From a virus, in the IMG/VR virus record IMGVR_UViG_3300032291_003130, positions 1 through 29,760 of that record: 29,760 nt of DNA. One strand, written 5' to 3'. The notes below the pieces were generated by a model. It was not told where the DNA came from, did not search any database, and was given only the letters and a program-made list of their open reading frames with translations. The position numbers were made by a program, and so were the translations under genes. Below, piece by piece: positions 5,068-27,642 of this stretch (positions are counted from its first letter, which is position 1; each line of letters opens with the position of its first letter).

Positions 5068-5277
5068 CTACTCCTCGCCCGGGTTAATCATGGTGCCGAG
5101 TTTGGCAATCATCTCCAGCATGGCGCCGTCGACGGTTTGGCTATCAACCGTTAGCGTTGTGCCATCGTGGTCTTCGCATTGCAGCGTTACCTTGCCGGTT
5201 GCCGTATCTACTACCAAGCTTGCGTACCGGAAACCTACCATTTCTGCCATGGTTTCAAGGTCGGTTAGGCTACTCAT
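5068..5277 (-). CDS. Hypothetical small phage protein
   Basis: The start is placed at ATG 5277, seven bases after a GGAGGTGG site; a frame to 5304 adds nine residues lying over the kinase gene. The 69-residue product is acidic, beginning MSSLTDLETMAEMVGFRY, with strand-like segments (ASLVVDTATGKVTLQCED, TLTVDSQTVDGAML) and an acidic end. No motif allows a function. It overlaps the dNMP kinase end by 8 bases and sits in the coupled operon. Confidence 0.6.
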   Translation of the reverse strand: MSSLTDLETMAEMVGFRYASLVVDTATGKVTLQCEDHDGTTLTVDSQTVDGAMLEMIAKLGTMINPGEE

Positions 5278-5854
5278 GTACCACCTCCTTTTTGGCGGCT
5301 TCAAGCACCGCCGCTATGCACTCTAACGGTGTTAAGGCCTGGGTATCAAGCACTAACTCGGCGGGTAACTCGCCCGCTTGCCGCTCGGTAATGTCTAGTT
5401 GCCATGGCTCGGTTGCGCCCGCCGGAGGGCGTACCAGCCGCACAAAAAGCGTATGCGGGTACCACGCCGCAATGTAGTTGCGCTCGGCATCGAGCCGTAA
5501 GTCATCAACCGCCCAGGGGCGGTTAGCCCCAAGGGCAATAGTGCCGTCTACCTGCTCGCACTCAACCCGGCGCCGCCATACCCGTAGCCAAAATAGGTTG
5601 TCCATCTCGCGTAAAGCTGCGCCTATTTCCTGCAAAAGTTCCCGCCCGGTAATGAGGCGTGCCAAACCCAAAGTATTTTGCGGGTACTTGGTTTGCTTAT
5701 CAAACTTGCCAAAAGCCATTTGGGCTACCTCGCGGATAGGCTCGGCAATGCTCAACCGGTCATAGCCGTAATGCTCGCTAAGCATTTGCGCCAAAGTGGT
5801 TTTACCCGTACCCGCCTTGCCCATAAAGGCTATTGGCCTTAGGTGCGCGCTCAT
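5270..5854 (-). CDS. Deoxynucleoside monophosphate kinase-like P-loop protein
   Basis: A 194-residue protein with a Walker A loop GKAGTGKTT at residues 12-20, and DRLSIAEPIREVAQMAFG at about 32-49 for the nucleotide-base side. GRELLQEIGAALRE lies near 70-83, and VDDLRLDAERNYI lies near 116-128. The last, a VDDhR followed by an Asn/Glu-containing helix, is the conserved switch of phage dNMP kinases of the T4 gene 1 type, which phosphorylate dNMPs to feed DNA synthesis. The length matches that family. The start overlaps the upstream DnaD-like gene as ATGA. Specificity (for example, modified bases) cannot be read from sequence. Confidence 0.75.
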   Translation of the reverse strand: MSAHLRPIAFMGKAGTGKTTLAQMLSEHYGYDRLSIAEPIREVAQMAFGKFDKQTKYPQNTLGLARLITGRELLQEIGAALREMDNLFWLRVWRRRVECEQVDGTIALGANRPWAVDDLRLDAERNYIAAWYPHTLFVRLVRPPAGATEPWQLDITERQAGELPAELVLDTQALTPLECIAAVLEAAKKEVVHE

Positions 5855-6333: not shown

Positions 6334-7017
6334 CTAAAAAGGCAACGAATCCAAATCCTCGTTGCCCTGGGTGTTAATCGGCTCGGTTTGCTTGGCTACC
6401 CACTCAATGCTGGGCTTACGCTTGCACCAAGCCCCGTCGGTTTTGCCGCTGCACGCCCAAAAGGGGTTATACGGCTTGCCGGTAGCTTTACTTACGCCGC
6501 CGGGCTTTTTCGCCCAGGGCTGGCCATGGTCTGGGCAACTATCGGCGCCGAAAAGTTCCATAGCGGCTTTAAGCATGACCGTATCGTGCCCCGCGGTAGG
6601 CTCGGGTGCCCTCGCTACAATGCCCGTAGGGGCGGTAATGCGGGGCGTAGCAGGGTTCTCCTTGGCGTAAAGGTACCTGGCTACCCCAAAAAGGCTGGCG
6701 CAACGCCGTAATGCATCGCTCGCCGCCTCTTTAAGGCTCTCGCCGCTACCCCCGGTTTCGTACCCAAAGTCCGCCCTAATAGCTACCGTGCCGTCGCTAA
6801 ACCGCACGTGCAGGGTGCCCTTAACGGCGTTAGTATCCCCTACCTTTTCTACCTCAAAGTCCCAGCCGTTTACGCCTAGCACCTCATCGAGCCGCCCCGC
6901 AACGGTGCGGGCATCAACCCAGGTAAGGTCGCGCCCGCCTACCCCTGGGCGGTGCCGGATAACCTCGGGGGGAAAAGGTGCAGCCAAGGCCGCCAAAATC
7001 TCGCCGTGCTTACTCAT
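6334..7017 (-). CDS. Rad52/22-type single-strand annealing protein with SSB-like tail
   Basis: A 227-residue protein. Residues about 30-120 carry the Rad52-like annealing core: WVDARTVAGRLDEVLG, NGWDFEVEKVGD, VKGTLHVRF, and ESLKEAASDALRRCASLFG with the conserved DALKRCA-type helix. Two Cys/His clusters follow (CPDHG, then WACSG and WCKRK), probably a zinc module. The protein ends NEDLDSLPF, an acidic tip like that of bacterial SSB. It anneals single strands made by the neighbouring YqaJ exonuclease, giving a complete lambda-Red-like pair. The start overlaps the next gene upstream as ATGA. Confidence 0.8.
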   Translation of the reverse strand: MSKHGEILAALAAPFPPEVIRHRPGVGGRDLTWVDARTVAGRLDEVLGVNGWDFEVEKVGDTNAVKGTLHVRFSDGTVAIRADFGYETGGSGESLKEAASDALRRCASLFGVARYLYAKENPATPRITAPTGIVARAPEPTAGHDTVMLKAAMELFGADSCPDHGQPWAKKPGGVSKATGKPYNPFWACSGKTDGAWCKRKPSIEWVAKQTEPINTQGNEDLDSLPF

Positions 7018-7538
7018 CGTGCAACCTCCAAAATCGGTACCGTATGCAGGTATTTTTGGGCAACCAGCTTAAAGCCCTTGCCGCCATTGGCACCGATAGC
7101 CCAGCCCTCGGTTGCGGCAATCCAGCCTATTACGTCAACTACTCGAAACCCCTCTTGGGGTAGCGGGTAGGCTAACACCACGTACCTGTTAAGTGCAACG
7201 TCTTTGTCGCGGATAACTAGCCGGTGCTCGGGGTTTACTATGCGTTTTACCTCAATACGCTCCCCGCAATCGGGCTCCTCGGCGTGCGCCCAATGCTCGG
7301 CGGCTGGCCAGACCTTGCCATGCCAGGTAACCCCAAAAGCCTTTGCAACCGCGCACTCGCCCGCCGCGGCGGCAAAGGAGGCGGTTTCGTCGTCTTGCAT
7401 TTTTGCCCTATCGTAATAGGGCTTATCGGCTACGCCTCGGTTGGCAACGTTGCGCCCATCGCCTACCGCCTTAGCCTTTGCCAACTCATCAAGCGTTAGG
7501 GTAATAAGGCGCCCTTTGGGGGTATAGCTGCTAATCAT
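7014..7538 (-). CDS. PD-(D/E)XK-like endonuclease, recombination operon
   Basis: The start is ATG 7538 (an ATG at 7550 is the alternative). It overlaps the YqaJ stop by 8 bases, with GGGGGG as the likely binding site. The product, about 174 residues, contains AGECAVAKAFGV near residues 60-71, then PDCGERIEVKRI near 89-100. An E-containing helix, then an Asp and ExK, is the layout of PD-(D/E)XK nucleases. Similar proteins are common in actinophage recombination operons, where the role is not clear. It lies between the exonuclease and annealing genes, suggesting a joint function in DNA repair or replication-fork processing. No close experimental homologue is claimed. Confidence 0.55.
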   Translation of the reverse strand: MISSYTPKGRLITLTLDELAKAKAVGDGRNVANRGVADKPYYDRAKMQDDETASFAAAAGECAVAKAFGVTWHGKVWPAAEHWAHAEEPDCGERIEVKRIVNPEHRLVIRDKDVALNRYVVLAYPLPQEGFRVVDVIGWIAATEGWAIGANGGKGFKLVAQKYLHTVPILEVAR

Positions 7539-8490
7539 TAAGCCCCCCATCGCGCACGATAAAGCGCCGGCTACCCGCGCGCTCCTTGGTAAACCGCGTT
7601 AGGGCCTCGCCGTAGGTATCGGGTGCAAGCCCCTGCAAACTCTCGGCTACGGCTCGCCAATCGGTAAGGGTGCTTGGGCGGGCTTGGCGCCAATACACCG
7701 TCCACCCATTGCCTGTTAGCCCCGCCTTTTCGGCAATCGCCTCCTTTAACACCATTTCCAAGGCGGCTTGCTTTTGCTCTAAAAAGTGCACCTCGGTTGC
7801 GGTTTCCTGGTATTGCCGTAGCACCCGCTCATGGGCTGCATCGGCAACGGCAAACTCCTCCGTAGCTTGCGGCGTAGCCTCGGCGTAGGCCATGGCATCG
7901 AGCGCTTCGAGCGCCGGCGGTGTGTTTGTATCTACTAACTCTAAAAACCGCGTAGCTGCAGCTTGCATGGTTTCCCAAAGTGCCGGGTCAAACTCTACCC
8001 GCTCAACCTTAAATACCAGCCCGCCTAGCAGGGCGGCAACGTCGCACCAAGGCGCGCCAACTATGCCCATTTGCCAGGTGGTTTGCAAAACTACCTCCGG
8101 CGGTACGGGCCAGGTGCTCCAACGCGGGCTAGCGCTGGTTTTAATCTCAACAATGCCAGGGCTACCCGCAATGGTGCGGTCAAGGCTTGCCATAAACCTT
8201 GGGTTAGCTTTAAGGCGTACTACGCCATTGCTCTTACGCAACTTAACGCCGCGCTCCTGCTCGTACCAGGTGCCAACGGCGTCTTCGAGCAATACGCCCC
8301 GGTTGGCGGCTGCGCCTACCTTTTGCGGCTCAACCGCGCCGGTTTTCTCCGCCCATAGGCCATACGGGGTTTTATAGGGGCTTACCCCCATAACCGCCGC
8401 CATGTCGGAGGCACCAAGCCCCCGGCGGCGTAGTTCGAGCCACTCGGCGCTACGCTGGGTTGCCTTTACAAACTCGTACCGTTTACCCAT
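7531..8490 (-). CDS. YqaJ-family viral recombinase exonuclease
   Basis: A 319-residue protein that begins RYEFVKATQRSAEWLELRRRGLGASD in two pieces, the standard YqaJ opening (WxxxRxxGIGxSD). It has MGVSPYKTPYGLWAEKTG near 34-51 and an active site in SLDRTIAGSPGIVEIKTSAS near 102-121, giving the D...ExK core, followed by VVLQTTWQM. This is a 5'-3' exonuclease that prepares ends for the Rad52-type annealing protein encoded next but one. The C-terminal third is helical and partly coiled-coil (EQKQAALEMVLKEAIAEK). GGAGGAG precedes its start within the end of the methyltransferase gene. Confidence 0.88.
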   Translation of the reverse strand: MGKRYEFVKATQRSAEWLELRRRGLGASDMAAVMGVSPYKTPYGLWAEKTGAVEPQKVGAAANRGVLLEDAVGTWYEQERGVKLRKSNGVVRLKANPRFMASLDRTIAGSPGIVEIKTSASPRWSTWPVPPEVVLQTTWQMGIVGAPWCDVAALLGGLVFKVERVEFDPALWETMQAAATRFLELVDTNTPPALEALDAMAYAEATPQATEEFAVADAAHERVLRQYQETATEVHFLEQKQAALEMVLKEAIAEKAGLTGNGWTVYWRQARPSTLTDWRAVAESLQGLAPDTYGEALTRFTKERAGSRRFIVRDGGLND

Positions 8491-15341: not shown

Positions 15342-15526
15342 TATCTACCCTGGCTTTGCAGCCACGCCAATAGCGCGCCAATACCCCCTACGCCCATAAA
15401 TGCACCAATAGCTTTAAGTACGGCTAAGCCGCCTTTCATCTGGTCTATCTCGGTTTTTAGTGCATCTATCTTGGCGCTCTGGGCATCGAGCCGCTCAATA
15501 ATGGCGTCGGCTTGGTTGCGGGTCAT
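15341..15526 (-). CDS. Coiled-coil and single-TM protein (XhlA/holin-like)
   Basis: A 61-residue protein. Residues 1-33 form an amphipathic coiled coil (ADAIIERLDAQSAKIDALKTEIDQMKGG in pieces), and residues 36-57 (LAVLKAIGAFMGVGGIGALLAWLQ) form a Gly-rich membrane helix. This layout matches XhlA-like phage proteins that assist lysis. It overlaps the tail fibre gene end by 4 bases and the next start as ATG. Lysis role is by analogy. Confidence 0.6.
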   Translation of the reverse strand: MTRNQADAIIERLDAQSAKIDALKTEIDQMKGGLAVLKAIGAFMGVGGIGALLAWLQSQGR

Positions 15527-17253
15527 TGCTGGGCCTCAATCGCTGCAAGCCGGGCTTCAAGGTCATTAACCCTATGCCAAAGGGCGGCAATAAGGGCGGT
15601 GCTATCTAGGCTTTCTGGGCGCCCCTCTGCATCATAGCCAACGGCGTGGGTAAGCCCTGCATCGTGCACCTCCTCGGCAATAAAGCCAAGGCGCGTTGCG
15701 CCCGCCTCATCGGCAATAGTGCTTTCGTAATGGCGCGGCTTAACGCTTTTTGCCGCTGCAAGCACCGCGGCGTCGGCATCGGTAATAGCGGTTTTGTATC
15801 GAGCGGAGGAGGTGTTGCGGCGTAGGTTATAGGTGGTGCCGCCCGTTAGCACCCAAATAGCCGCGTTAGTGGTTGCGGTGGTGCCCGTAATGTTGTCGGC
15901 GTAAAAAGTGTTTGCTTGTACGTACCCGCTTGGCGACTCAAAACTTCCCGAAACCGCTGTTACCGAACCCGTATCATAAAAGTAGCGGCTTGCCGTTGCG
16001 CCGTTCATTGGGTAAATGCGTGCCGCCCATAGCTGCCCATAAGTAGTAGTGCTGCTACCACTTAGCACTTGCATAACGCCAACCGCGCCCGACTTTAACC
16101 CTGCAAAGTCTGCACCGGTACGCGGCCTAAAAATAATGCGTGGGTTTGTACCATCGGCGGCGTTTGTATCTTGCAAAATAACGTCTGCACCGTTTGCTTG
16201 CAGCAAAAGGTCGCTAGTGGTGCTGTTATCGCTGCGCACGGTCGCGGCGTCAATAATCGAGGCGTTAAGTGTGCCAAGGGTAGTGCCGTCGGTTGTAACG
16301 GTCATACCGCTAGGCGCTGTTACCGTTACGCTCGTACCGCTTTGTAATGCAATGTACGTGCCGCTTAAAATCTCAACGGTATTTGCGCCAACTAGTTTTA
16401 CGTCTGGGCCCAGCAACAAATAGTCGCCATTGCCGCTTTGCACGTTAAGTTCTCCATTGTTTGCGTTAATGATTGCTGGGGGATAAACCGAGTAGCCCTC
16501 CTTATCGGTAAGCACTAGTTCCGGTACGCCGTTAGTTACTCGCACCTCCGTAAGGTCAACCGTTCGAGCAGCCGATTGGGTGGCAACCGTTGCAATGGTA
16601 ATAGTTAGTTTTAGGTATGCCGCGTCGGCTGGTGCCGTCATTGCCGTTAAGTCTGGCGCAACCCCCCACAAATCTGGCGCGGTAATGCCCGTTGCGCTTA
16701 TCAAACTATTAAAGCCGTAGGTAGCCGAGGTAAAAGCTGTGCCCGTAGTAGTAACTTGGTCGGAGGCGTAAAACTGGCAACTAAGTTTTGCCGTTGCCTG
16801 GGTGCTATTGGTGCCGCTATCAAAGGTAGCCTCCGCATAAAAACTAAATGACCGCGAGGCCGAGGAGGCAACCGGTATAAACCTAGTAAGGGTTGCACTC
16901 TTGCCCGTTAGGGTGCCGCTTGCAACGGTAAAGCGCAATACGTTACCCGAGGCTGCGCCGGCATCGGCAACGATAGCCGCGGTAATCGCGCCCGCACTAT
17001 TAACGTCGGTAAAAGTCCAATAAGGTAGCGGGTTGCCATCTTGCACAATGGTAGCCAAGGGGTCAAGCGGCGGGATAGCAAAGTCGCCGTTGGCAACGCC
17101 CGCTTGGATTTCTCGCAATGCAGCCGAGCCAAAAAGTAGCGATTGCTCCCCGGTGCTATCGCCGCTCAATAGTACGGCGCCCTCCTCGGAGATAACGCCG
17201 CCGCCAAACCCGGCTAGTTGCGACTGGTCGCTACCTAGTTTTTCGTATCCCAT
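15523..17253 (-). CDS. Tail fibre/spike protein with S74 intramolecular chaperone
   Basis: A 576-residue protein. The N-terminus has a short conserved structural region (SEEGAVLLSGDSTGEQ). The middle is beta-rich (repeated Ala/Thr/Ser strands, with DGTNPRIIFRPRTGADFAGL), and the C-terminal 100 residues hold the S74 signature: SSARYKTAITDAD, then LGFIAEEV, followed by a coiled coil ending ALWHRVNDLEARLAAIEAQQ. Such chaperone domains assist trimerisation and then self-cleave at the Ser of SSARYK-type motifs. This is likely the host-binding spike or fibre, placed after the tail genes. Confidence 0.8.
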   Translation of the reverse strand: MGYEKLGSDQSQLAGFGGGVISEEGAVLLSGDSTGEQSLLFGSAALREIQAGVANGDFAIPPLDPLATIVQDGNPLPYWTFTDVNSAGAITAAIVADAGAASGNVLRFTVASGTLTGKSATLTRFIPVASSASRSFSFYAEATFDSGTNSTQATAKLSCQFYASDQVTTTGTAFTSATYGFNSLISATGITAPDLWGVAPDLTAMTAPADAAYLKLTITIATVATQSAARTVDLTEVRVTNGVPELVLTDKEGYSVYPPAIINANNGELNVQSGNGDYLLLGPDVKLVGANTVEILSGTYIALQSGTSVTVTAPSGMTVTTDGTTLGTLNASIIDAATVRSDNSTTSDLLLQANGADVILQDTNAADGTNPRIIFRPRTGADFAGLKSGAVGVMQVLSGSSTTTYGQLWAARIYPMNGATASRYFYDTGSVTAVSGSFESPSGYVQANTFYADNITGTTATTNAAIWVLTGGTTYNLRRNTSSARYKTAITDADAAVLAAAKSVKPRHYESTIADEAGATRLGFIAEEVHDAGLTHAVGYDAEGRPESLDSTALIAALWHRVNDLEARLAAIEAQQ

Positions 17254-23957: not shown

Positions 23958-25097
23958 TTAGACGTTTGCGCCCTTAAAGGTCTTAACGGCGCTTGGCTCG
24001 ATAAGCCCGGTTACACCACGTACCTGGATACGGTACGTAATAAGCCCGGTGCTAAAAGCAAAGTCGGCGCTGGAGGCAATGTCTACACCGCCCACAACAA
24101 CCGTTTTAATGGCGCCCAAATCTCCAAACAACCAGGAGAGGGCTTCGTCGCCGTTATCGGCAACCGCACCGCTATAAACCGGGTAGCCCAAAAGCGTATC
24201 TGGGCGGCTCATGTCGCCTGGAATAAAGATTGGGCGGTTCTGCGAGTCAAGCAAAGCCATAGCCGCGCCAAGGTTTGCATCGCTCGTAATGAATCCGCGC
24301 TTAGGTGCTCGACGGTACTGCTGCTTGACCGAATAAATAAGGCTTACTAGGTCAAGGTACACGGGTGCAACTGCTGCACCCTGCTTACCAACCGTAGCTG
24401 CCGCTGCAACCGCTGGGCCTGCAACTGCGCCGTGCGCAATGCCGACTTCCTGGCCTGCCTTCTCGGCAACAAAAGCCGTAATGTCAAAGGCTGCATCATT
24501 TACCAGTTCCTGGCTAATCTGGAGGAGCGTTGCATACTTAACCGGGGTAAGCCCCAGGTTCGAAAGTGTGCCGTCGCTCTCGCCAATAGCGCCCGCCTCG
24601 GATACCGCAGCTGCGGTGCCAAGGGCTGTTACGCGCGGGAGGAGAATCTGGTTTCCGGTGGAGGCTCGGATAATGTCGACTACGTCTGGGTTAATAAATG
24701 GGTTTACCTGCCCAGCAACAACGTTTACCAGTCCTGCAACGGTAACTGGATTGCCCAGCCCGGTGCTCTTGGTTACGTCGCGGTACTCAAAGTTGCGCTC
24801 GCCGCCATCGCGGCCGAGGCGGCGGAGTTCCGCTGCATCGTCGTTAGCCTCAACCTTTGGCGCCATAGCTGTTGCAAACTCGGCGCGTGCCGAATCGGCG
24901 GCGGCTCGGGCCTCGGTGGCCTCGCGCTCGGACTTAATAACGTTGGCAAGGGTTGACGCCTCGGCGGTAAGGCTCTCAAATCGTGCCTGGGCCTCGCCCG
25001 TAAGCGACTCGCCCTTCTCGGCGGTAGCCTCAACCAGGGCGGTAGCCTCGGTCAAAAGCATAGCGCGCTTTTCTGCAAGCTTCTTAATGTCTGCCAT
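23958..25097 (-). CDS. Major capsid protein, HK97 fold
   Basis: A 379-residue protein. The first 90 residues are an Ala/Glu-rich helical delta domain (LAEKRAMLLTEATALVEATAEKGE), followed by the capsid core (VTVAGLVNVVAGQVNPFINPDVVDI, RVTALGTAAAVSEAGAIGES, ATLLQISQELVNDAAFDI, RAPKRGFITSDANLGAAM, DTLLGYPVYSGAVADNG). This is HK97-like, with a fusion-like scaffold that the adjacent protease would remove. The gene is preceded by a 114-base gap with an A-rich leader but no classical binding site. It uses more host-like codons than its neighbours, as expected for high expression. Confidence 0.85.
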   Translation of the reverse strand: MADIKKLAEKRAMLLTEATALVEATAEKGESLTGEAQARFESLTAEASTLANVIKSEREATEARAAADSARAEFATAMAPKVEANDDAAELRRLGRDGGERNFEYRDVTKSTGLGNPVTVAGLVNVVAGQVNPFINPDVVDIIRASTGNQILLPRVTALGTAAAVSEAGAIGESDGTLSNLGLTPVKYATLLQISQELVNDAAFDITAFVAEKAGQEVGIAHGAVAGPAVAAAATVGKQGAAVAPVYLDLVSLIYSVKQQYRRAPKRGFITSDANLGAAMALLDSQNRPIFIPGDMSRPDTLLGYPVYSGAVADNGDEALSWLFGDLGAIKTVVVGGVDIASSADFAFSTGLITYRIQVRGVTGLIEPSAVKTFKGANV

Positions 25098-25211: not shown

Positions 25212-26441
25212 TTAAATACTGTCGCTCTCCAGTTTGGCAAGGGCAAGCCGAGCCGCGGCAATGCTGCGGTCAATCTCAACCGGCTTTGGCGCAAGCGCCA
25301 TACGCACGGCGTCGATAACCTCAACCTCGTCGGGGCTTAGGCTCTTACCTGCTTTTACTGTTTCGAGCGTAGAAATAAGCCGCTCGGCGTTTACGCCAAT
25401 GCGGGCCTCGGCAACTTTGCGCACGGCGCTAAGTCCGAGGGTTGCGGGGTAGGCGGGCTGGTGCCCGCTCAAAATAGAAACCTCAAAAAGGTTTACCTCG
25501 TTAAGGGTGCGGGTTTCTCCCTCCCAGGTATCGCCGCCCTTTGGCACCGTAAAGCCAAAACTCATGCCCATAGCCTTAGCCTCGTGGGTAAGTTTGCTAA
25601 TAACGGCGGCTGCATCGGGGTCGGCGGGGTCTAGCTTTGCCTCAACGCGCAAGCCCTGCGAATCCTCGGTTAGGGTAAGGCGCCCGCTCGCGGTGCTTGC
25701 AAGCATGCGGCTTTCATCGTGCCCATGCAAAAACTTAACCACGCGCTCGGCCTTGGCTACGCGCCCGAGGGTACGCTTAAAGGCGCCTGGCTTAATGGTT
25801 TCGGTAAATGGCAACCCAGCGGAAGGCGCGCCGTATAGGGCGGCGTAGCCGGTAAAAACCTTTTGCCCGTCCTGCTCGGTAAGCCTAAACTCGCCAAGCC
25901 CAAGGTTGCGGGTTTCAATGTCCTTAGTGCTGCCGCGGTATAGCGTGCCCGGCTCAACGGCGGTAGTTGGCGCTGGCTTATCCTCGGGTGCGGCGCTATC
26001 CTCGGTTGCGGCTTCTGGCTGCGTATCCTCTTGCAGGTACTCGGTAGGGGTTTTGGCTTCTAGCCCTAACTCCCTAGCCATAGCGATTACCTCGGGGTCG
26101 TTATCTATGGCGCACTCAATCCCGTTAGGGGTAGCTTCGCCCTTAATCCCGTACTCGGTAATAAGCGCCTCATACTTGGCGCGCTTAAAGGCAAGCCCTA
26201 CGTTAGGCCCCTTTCCGGCGCCCTCAAAATCATTAAGGTAGACGTGGTCTACGCCCGCCACTTTGTTTTCCTGCAACCATGCGCGGGTTTCCTCTAATCG
26301 CTCAATAGGGCGCGCGCTTACGACGATAATCTGGGTACCGCCCTCCATTACCTCGGCGTTAAGGTACTCAATAAGCGGCGTATTAGGCTCGTTATTATCG
26401 AGCGCTAGCGTGCCGTCAATGTCTACAATCTTATACGCCAT
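25212..26441 (-). CDS. HAD-type phosphatase fused to HK97 prohead protease
   Basis: A 409-residue protein of two modules. Residues 1-130 have a full HAD pattern: DIDGT at 7-11, VVSAR with Ser42, Lys86, and CAIDNDPEVI with Asp113/115. This is similar to the phosphatase part of polynucleotide kinase. An acidic Pro-rich linker (about 135-170) leads to the prohead protease: FTGYAALYGAP near 196-206, LHGHDES with His241, and MGMSFGF with Ser294. The protease removes the capsid delta domain. Why a phosphatase is attached is unknown; it could act on DNA ends, nucleotides or be a regulatory add-on. It overlaps the portal by 11 bases. Confidence 0.8.
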   Translation of the reverse strand: MAYKIVDIDGTLALDNNEPNTPLIEYLNAEVMEGGTQIIVVSARPIERLEETRAWLQENKVAGVDHVYLNDFEGAGKGPNVGLAFKRAKYEALITEYGIKGEATPNGIECAIDNDPEVIAMARELGLEAKTPTEYLQEDTQPEAATEDSAAPEDKPAPTTAVEPGTLYRGSTKDIETRNLGLGEFRLTEQDGQKVFTGYAALYGAPSAGLPFTETIKPGAFKRTLGRVAKAERVVKFLHGHDESRMLASTASGRLTLTEDSQGLRVEAKLDPADPDAAAVISKLTHEAKAMGMSFGFTVPKGGDTWEGETRTLNEVNLFEVSILSGHQPAYPATLGLSAVRKVAEARIGVNAERLISTLETVKAGKSLSPDEVEVIDAVRMALAPKPVEIDRSIAAARLALAKLESDSI

Positions 26442-27642
26442 TATTTTTTTCTCCCTGTGTTGGCTCGCCTACCGTGCCAATGTTTAGCGGCTGCCTAAAC
26501 TCGTCGCCGGCTGGCCCAATCGGTGCCCGGTCTTCAAGCTGCCTAATCTCATTAAGGCTTAACCAGCCGTTGTTAAGCGCTACCGCGTATGCATCGTACC
26601 GCTCCTTAGTCATCGGGCGTAGCAGCGCATCAACGTTAAACTTAACAAAGGTAGTATTACCCACAATAAGCCGTTGTAGCCCAGCCTCCACGCGTGCGAT
26701 AAGTGGGCCTAGCCCAAGGCGCAACCACTCCGCGCTAATAACCTCCAGGCTGGCGTATGAGGAGGAGCCGTTAGGGTATTGCAAAAGGTGCAGGGGTACG
26801 CCATACAATCGAGCGATAGCCTCGGTACCCCATGCCATGGTTTCTATCATCTGCATGTCGCTAATCTTGGCGCTAAGGCTGGAAAAATCCGCGCCCCCGC
26901 TTAGTACGGCTACGCGGTGCATGCGGTCGACGCCCTCGTGGTTACGCCCAAAAGCTGCCCGCAACCCCTGGGCTTGGTCTTGGGTAAGTTCGCCCGGCAC
27001 CTTAATAATGCCGCTAGGCGCTGCGCCCTGCTCATAAAACTTAGCGGCGTAAACCTGGGTAGCGGAGGCAAGCCCAAGCGTTACCCGGTGGTGCTCAACC
27101 GGGCTTAGGCCTCGTAGGCTTTCGCCGTAGGCAAATAACGTAATGTGCACAATGGCGTCGGCGCCAAAGGTGCCCGTGCCCTCATTGCTCGTAATCTTAT
27201 AGGTTGGCGTACCATCGTGGGCTTGCAAAACCTCAACCTTACGCGGGTCAAGGACTCGCACCTCCAACACCTCGCCCAAATCATTGCGTACGGTAAGCAA
27301 AAAGGCGTTGCCATCGAGCAATAGGCTAGTAACGATACGGTGCCGCAAATCAAACCCGGTAAAGTTTGGGTTATTGGGGATAGGCTGGTCAAACCATAGT
27401 GGGCGCTTAACTGGGCGGCGCTCGCCATCGGCTCTAATGTATGCGCCCCAAGGTAGGCTTGCTACGGTATCTGCATAAAGCTTAACGGCGGCATACACCG
27501 CGCCAATGCTGGTGGCGTTATCTTGGTTAATGGCAACGCCGGCGGTTTTAGCGCCGTTGTCCTTCCACCAATCATTACCCCAGCCGCCGCCAATAGCGCG
27601 CCGCTCATTATCGCGCCCGAGAATACGGTCAATAATCCCCAT
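26431..27642 (-). CDS. Portal protein, HK97 type
   Basis: A 403-residue protein. It begins MGIIDRILGRDNERRAIGGGW, then GVAINQDNATSIGAVYAAVKLYADTVASLPW (in pieces), the typical opening of phage portal proteins. The middle contains IPNNPNFTGFDLRHRIVTSLLLDGNAF. Then SPVEHHRVTLGLASATQ, and the end has YDAYAVALNNGWLSLNEIRQLEDRAPI. The dodecameric portal is the DNA entry gate that docks the terminase. The end overlaps the protease start; an A7 run there is not needed for expression. Confidence 0.88.
   Translation of the reverse strand: MGIIDRILGRDNERRAIGGGWGNDWWKDNGAKTAGVAINQDNATSIGAVYAAVKLYADTVASLPWGAYIRADGERRPVKRPLWFDQPIPNNPNFTGFDLRHRIVTSLLLDGNAFLLTVRNDLGEVLEVRVLDPRKVEVLQAHDGTPTYKITSNEGTGTFGADAIVHITLFAYGESLRGLSPVEHHRVTLGLASATQVYAAKFYEQGAAPSGIIKVPGELTQDQAQGLRAAFGRNHEGVDRMHRVAVLSGGADFSSLSAKISDMQMIETMAWGTEAIARLYGVPLHLLQYPNGSSSYASLEVISAEWLRLGLGPLIARVEAGLQRLIVGNTTFVKFNVDALLRPMTKERYDAYAVALNNGWLSLNEIRQLEDRAPIGPAGDEFRQPLNIGTVGEPTQGEKNNGV

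Follow-up and report, generated by a model that had tools for sequence, protein, structure and literature searches.

A HAD phosphatase-like domain fused to the prohead protease of uncultured phages: a candidate enzyme cargo of the growing head

The window, which is the whole stretch of viral DNA that was analysed (29,760 nucleotides), encodes a HAD phosphatase domain and a prohead maturation protease in a single protein, and the same pair of domains is fused in many other uncultured phages. We propose that a lumen-facing head protein carries an active HAD phosphatase into the prohead as an attached module, a reading that we regard as evenly poised between right and wrong. Each half of the protein is already known, as are public prohead protease entries that hold a HAD and long N-termini on such proteases. 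The breadth of the fusion, the exchange of modules, the version carried by the portal protein and the internal start are new. In the open-licence literature, the pair formed by a HAD and a prohead protease was not found described.

Results

The fusion gene and its locus

The HAD-protease fusion gene (25212..26441, minus strand) is one uninterrupted ORF of 409 amino acids with an ATG start. It is located between the portal protein gene, its upstream neighbour (26431..27642, minus strand; PF04860, 1.5e-79), which carries no HAD, and the downstream gene of an HK97-type major capsid protein (23958..25097, minus strand; TIGR01554, 6.2e-39). This is the position of an HK97-type prohead protease gene. 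The residues of the major capsid protein that lie ahead of the capsid match would be a scaffold or delta part. The start of the fusion ORF and the end of the portal gene share 11 bases, and a Shine-Dalgarno-like GGAG (26451..26454, minus strand) is found 9 nt before the ATG.

The protein has four segments, all encoded on the minus strand. The HAD phosphatase domain, supported by PHROGs, the AF2 model, the fold match and conservation, comprises residues 1-138 (26028..26441) with the residues D7xD9GT, S42xR44, K86 and D113-N-D115. It is followed by a Pro/Glu/Ala-rich linker, residues 141-173 (25923..26021), and by the Peptidase_S78 prohead protease domain, residues 188-334 (25440..25880). The secondary structure of the model places C-terminal helices of the protease at residues 336-409 (25215..25436). 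In the AlphaFold model of the fusion, two confident domains are joined by the linker, in which the pLDDT is below 50. A sequence-only reading of this DNA had placed HAD motifs and a protease in one frame, and every residue that it named, D7-I-D9-G-T11, S42, K86, D113-N-D115, H241 and S294, is indeed at its position.

Elsewhere, the window encodes two DNA methyltransferases within the one 29.8 kb contig (3299-4837 and 8483-9700), a recombination pair made of an Erf-like annealing protein and a RecE-like exonuclease (6334-7017 and 7531-8490), a deoxynucleoside monophosphate (dNMP) kinase (5270-5854; phrog_139, 2.2e-21) and a tail protein whose C-terminal part is a Peptidase_S74 chaperone domain (15523-17253; 5.1e-6).

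The protease half

Peptidase_S78 (PF04586) matches residues 188-334 with an E-value of 2.2e-28 and 99.9 bits, against a cut-off of 21, and the curated family TIGR01543 is matched at 85.6 bits, above its cut-off of 59. H241 and S294 are invariant in 33 fused proteins, and the model of the protease half matches the fold of T4 gp21.

The HAD half

Modelled alone, the HAD domain has an AF2 pLDDT of 94.3 and a Rossmann-like HAD fold, which Foldseek matched to 5uj0 (E=1e-6). The nearest solved fold is the 3'-phosphatase domain of T4 Pnkp (Z 16.2, rmsd 2.0, 118 aligned residues, 25% identity). Structure prediction, which the sequence-only reading had proposed for both halves, leads to the T4 Pnkp phosphatase for the HAD and to T4 gp21 for the protease. 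In PHROGs, the window HAD matches phrog_415, a polynucleotide kinase family (6.3e-12), and phrog_505 (1.8e-5). A lack of HAD homology, the outcome that had been thought fatal to the fusion, is excluded by the phrog_415 match together with the structure match. PADLOC did not place the HAD among defence-system proteins.

The four HAD motifs are all present: DxDGT in motif I, Ser/Thr in motif II, Lys in motif III and acidic residues in motif IV. D9 and T11 never vary across 111 distinct HADs; S42, R44, K86 and D113 are the same wherever they are aligned, and the nucleophile D7 shows a single change, from D to E. The catalytic residues are kept down to 40% identity between HADs. The HAD part is shown to be under purifying selection by its dN/dS, which is 0.30 and 0.32 in two comparisons with the window, 0.18 for a pair of close relatives (L002-L003) and 0.03-0.05 in two more distant pairs. 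The dN/dS of the protease part is 0.08-0.18, so that the two parts are comparable. The window linker, at 0.36-0.79, is relaxed and is the least conserved part. From its sequence, we infer that the window HAD is an active, catalytically competent phosphatase.

The relation to T4 Pnkp is partial. The window HAD has two motifs of the PNKP phosphatases, DxDGT (D7-I-D9-G-T) and the SxR of motif II (S42-A-R44). Its match to HAD_PNKP (PF25109; 3e-4) scores 21.4 and falls below the Pfam gathering score of 27.6, and in alignments with T4 and phage PNKs the window HAD lacks equivalents of RSPYD/R176, D254 and D278. Membership of the PNKP family is not claimed. RSPYD/R176, D254 and D278 are essential residues of the T4 Pnkp phosphatase, and phosphatase activity can thus not be deduced by analogy with that enzyme. 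Among HADs of the window type, R48, W55, D71 and F72 vary little or not at all, and these residues may mark a substrate other than that of T4 Pnkp. Judging from the modelled fold, our most likely guess for the substrate is a phosphate on a nucleotide or on a nucleic-acid end. The more precise suggestion that, during packaging, the phosphatase acts on nucleotides or DNA ends found no specific support, since T4 Pnkp is the nearest fold but the three equivalents named above are missing. The sequence-only reading is therefore supported in part: its architecture, its residues and a start inside the prohead hold, and its action during packaging is not specifically supported. The internal start of most relatives and the exchange of N-terminal modules, both described below, go beyond it.

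Breadth of the fusion

Searching IMG/VR with the HAD query gave 28 loci, and scans with the HAD alignment gave 156 and then 357 related stretches, of which 80 each were taken. The pair of domains, which the sequence-only reading had suggested looking for in other phages, was found in about 149 distinct fused ORFs of IMG/VR contigs, a count of distinct sequences, a small number of which may derive from one contig that was fetched more than once with different ends. The first related loci hold 101 HAD-bearing ORFs; 94 of them contain the protease in the same frame, and the remaining 7 are cut off by the end of their contig.

An error of sequencing or assembly that joined two genes, the other outcome that would have undone the fusion, has a practically negligible probability. 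One related contig does hold a broken copy, L283:1971-3418, in which the frame of the HAD and helical part and that of the protease are shifted. It was considered as a split HAD and protease and rejected because L285 and L286 are near-identical and intact. Intact copies alongside the broken one, the roughly 149 distinct fused ORFs, which come from many samples, and public BFVD prohead protease entries with the same HAD already refute such an error. Among annotated phage records, 259 match the protease part only and none covers 80% of the fusion query. Scans of genome contigs with the whole fusion protein and with the HAD alignment gave no relative, and for this reason no host is named for the window phage.

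An internal start for the protease alone

The protease opens with an E-x-R. In 149 distinct fusions, the codon 5-7 positions ahead of it reads ATG in 89 cases, GTG in 36, TTG in 9 and GTA in 2, and it encodes other residues in 13. Hence 134 of the 149 have ATG, GTG or TTG at the protease boundary. Where the boundary residue is Val, the codon is GTG in 36 of 38 cases, against a background of 30% in the same genes, and where it is Leu, all 9 of 9 use TTG, compared with 14%. Of the junction start codons, 98.5% are preceded by a Shine-Dalgarno match of at least 4; the figure is 26.8% for the remaining in-frame ATG, GTG or TTG codons and 88% for HAD starts. These percentages are descriptive, because the sequences are related and the limits of the scan (positions, spacing and match length) were fixed after the first matches had been viewed. 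A tree of 135 proteases shows 11 switches among the three start codons, and only 4 changes between a start and no start. The Shine-Dalgarno contrast and the switching among start codons, rather than the percentages, make the internal start persuasive. Most relatives would thus probably make the protease alone besides the fusion, by means of a second translation start.

This internal start is the strongest regulatory signal among the relatives and it is missing from the window gene. In the window clade (with L002-L004), the junction codon is GCT or ACT and the start is lost; in the window itself it is ACT, coding for T172 (25926..25928, minus strand). An in-frame ATG within the HAD (M121; 26079..26081, minus strand), preceded by GAGGT 7 nt upstream, is also kept in L002-L004 and is a possible internal start in this clade. 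With the junction start lost, every protease copy in the window clade probably carries the HAD, barring a start at ATG121 or self-cleavage.

Exchange of N-terminal modules on the protease

Some near relatives have an alternative N-terminus in place of the HAD. It combines a GWAT..GEVIGCH stretch with a Cys-rich part, similar to high-potential iron-sulfur proteins, and with a helical domain about 100 aa long, and it is found in L122:2013-3452, L119, L126 and L030:3809-5260 (phiPsal1). The helical domain also sits between the HAD and the protease in many HAD forms. The proteases of L121, which has the HAD, and of L122, which has the GWAT/Cys-rich module, are 97.9% identical over 238 aa. Other relatives have an insert between the HAD and the protease, which is DUF3721 in L017:2458-4113 (3.5e-10) and DUF5824 in L020:3379-5277 (1.1e-7). 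A long N-terminus on such proteases is already known, since phrog_80 spans the GWAT/Cys-rich/helical form end to end, as in L122. No HAD was found elsewhere in 12 IMG/VR contigs of this other form (one of 30.1 kb) or in phiPsal1, an absence that is weak as most of these are fragments.

On the protease tree, which comes from a rapid search and has a single very long outgroup branch, the HAD label changes 6 times. Only 1 of these changes is required by the starred branches, and the total is the same when the labels are shuffled. Module swapping is therefore judged on the near-identical pairs and not on the tree. By these sequence comparisons the HAD is a swappable module, one of several that are exchangeable at the protease N-terminus. 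If this reading is true, the N-terminus of the protease is a hot spot of module exchange.

A related HAD on the portal protein

A scan with diverged HADs revealed 13 loci, in another phage lineage, where the portal protein continues in frame into a HAD and the helical domain, with a length of 729-756 aa where complete. The portal C-terminus is there fused to a related HAD and helical PSAGRIAWALWGG domain (L305:1543-3711, L308:983-3250, L309, L312, L284, L288, L275, L294, L295, L304, L313, L296 and L297). At these loci the S78-type protease is separate and on the other strand. Motif IV of the portal HADs has Glu as its first acidic residue (IENDA), and the other motifs are alike. Portal-borne and protease-borne HADs belong to different HAD branches, and the two attachments could have arisen for separate reasons.

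The C-terminal domains of the P22 portal reach inward, into the capsid (PMC4992974). Prohead 1 contains about 60 copies of the protease in HK97 and about 90 in D3 (PMC12749128). Both carriers of the HAD are thus lumen-facing, and that two such unlike proteins bear it is the main reason to favour a placement inside the head. The earlier idea that a protease-borne phosphatase starts out inside the prohead holds up, with the HAD on the portal C-terminus of other phages as independent support for a location that is itself inferred.

Discussion

The reading that we favour can be set out as follows. The gene product would be an HK97-type maturation protease that bears at its N-terminus, on a flexible linker, a catalytically competent HAD module. 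As the prohead takes in the protease, the phosphatase would reach the lumen as an enzyme cargo of the growing head. In most relatives a fraction of the protease copies would carry the HAD, and in the window clade probably all of them would, unless ATG121 or self-cleavage separates the two parts. The fate of such a cargo could follow either of two precedents. Purified D3 Prohead 2 shows the cleaved capsid band only and no protease band (PMC12749128), which suggests that the HAD may vanish on maturation and act transiently, or not in the head. The internal proteins of T4 and Alt stay in the head and then enter the host (PMC7411985).

A wider form of this proposal is tentative and seems to us somewhat doubtful. 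It holds that there is a general slot for loading enzymes, in which interchangeable catalytic or metal-binding modules are placed on lumen-facing termini, the N-terminus of the protease and the C-terminus of the portal; the internal start would set the share of cargo, and the phosphatase would serve the packaged genome or its ejection. If phosphatase loading is real, widespread uncultured phages load this enzyme into the procapsid on their portal or maturation protease and regulate the dose through a second start site. It would also be a natural route for enzyme encapsulation in HK97-type heads and would give the function of capsid-internal enzymes a testable place.

The HAD could instead be an ordinary cytoplasmic phosphatase of nucleotides or nucleic-acid ends, serving for example repair or salvage, and its fusion to a late head gene would then set only expression and dose, the position in the head being incidental. 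The closest folds are indeed soluble repair phosphatases (T4 Pnkp, Z 16.2), and HAD entries of 149-183 aa that stand alone occur among viral structure models. The presence of the dNMP kinase gene in the window points the same way, but this kinase is found in relatives with and without the HAD and so does not track it; a link between the two was accordingly dropped. Moreover, every HAD in the fetched loci is attached to a head protein, at the protease N-terminus or the portal C-terminus, and the fusion-lacking contigs examined hold no HAD elsewhere. We therefore consider a purely cytoplasmic role unlikely, while still a serious contender.

That the HAD serves the protease in structure or regulation, by aiding oligomerisation, restraining early proteolysis or acting as scaffold-like filler, with catalysis dispensable, is less probable still. 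Unrelated N-terminal modules replace each other at one site, as fillers or spacers would, and most relatives probably also make the protease by itself. However, D7, D9, T11, S42, R44, K86 and D113 are kept between HADs as little as 40% identical, which structure alone would not need. It is very improbable that the enzyme acts, like T4 Alt, on phosphorylated host or phage head proteins, or on small phosphometabolites, whether in the prohead or after ejection. HAD folds of similar size do include the protein, lipid and sugar phosphatases Nir2, lipin, MDP-1 and KDN-9-phosphatase, and head-borne T4 proteins that reach the host provide a precedent (PMC7411985), but no signature of protein, lipid or sugar phosphatase families passes the Pfam cut-off. 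Delivery of a phosphatase into the prohead is thus the reading that we retain, at the even level of confidence given above.

Comparison with known systems places the window protein among several relatives. One group is formed by UniProt/BFVD 'prohead protease' entries from uncultured Caudovirales phages (A0A6J5R419, A0A6J5S5M9, A0A6J5NAI8, A0A6J7WPK9 and A0A6J5MQJ8), whose HAD region is 54% to about 22% identical to the window HAD; their names are automatic, and the likeness rests on the HAD region, the rest of the architecture being known by name only. With T4 Pnkp, the window HAD shares the equivalents of D165, D167, S211, R213, K258 and D277, whereas the kinase domain of that enzyme has no counterpart in the fusion. 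The internal head proteins of T4 and Alt are a precedent for head-borne enzymes that are processed by the prohead protease (PMC7411985). They are encoded by separate genes and have cleaved targeting peptides, while the window HAD is a domain of the protease itself; retention in the virion is known for the T4 proteins, and the window HAD is known from sequence. The HK97 gp4-type maturation protease (Peptidase_S78, TIGR01543, phrog_80) has in common with the window protein the domain, the catalytic His and Ser and the T4 gp21-like fold, and the gene order terminase-portal-protease-capsid is common to both loci. Unlike the HK97 gp4-type protease, the window protein has an N-terminal HAD module and a linker, and most of its fusion relatives hold an internal start that would also yield the protease alone.
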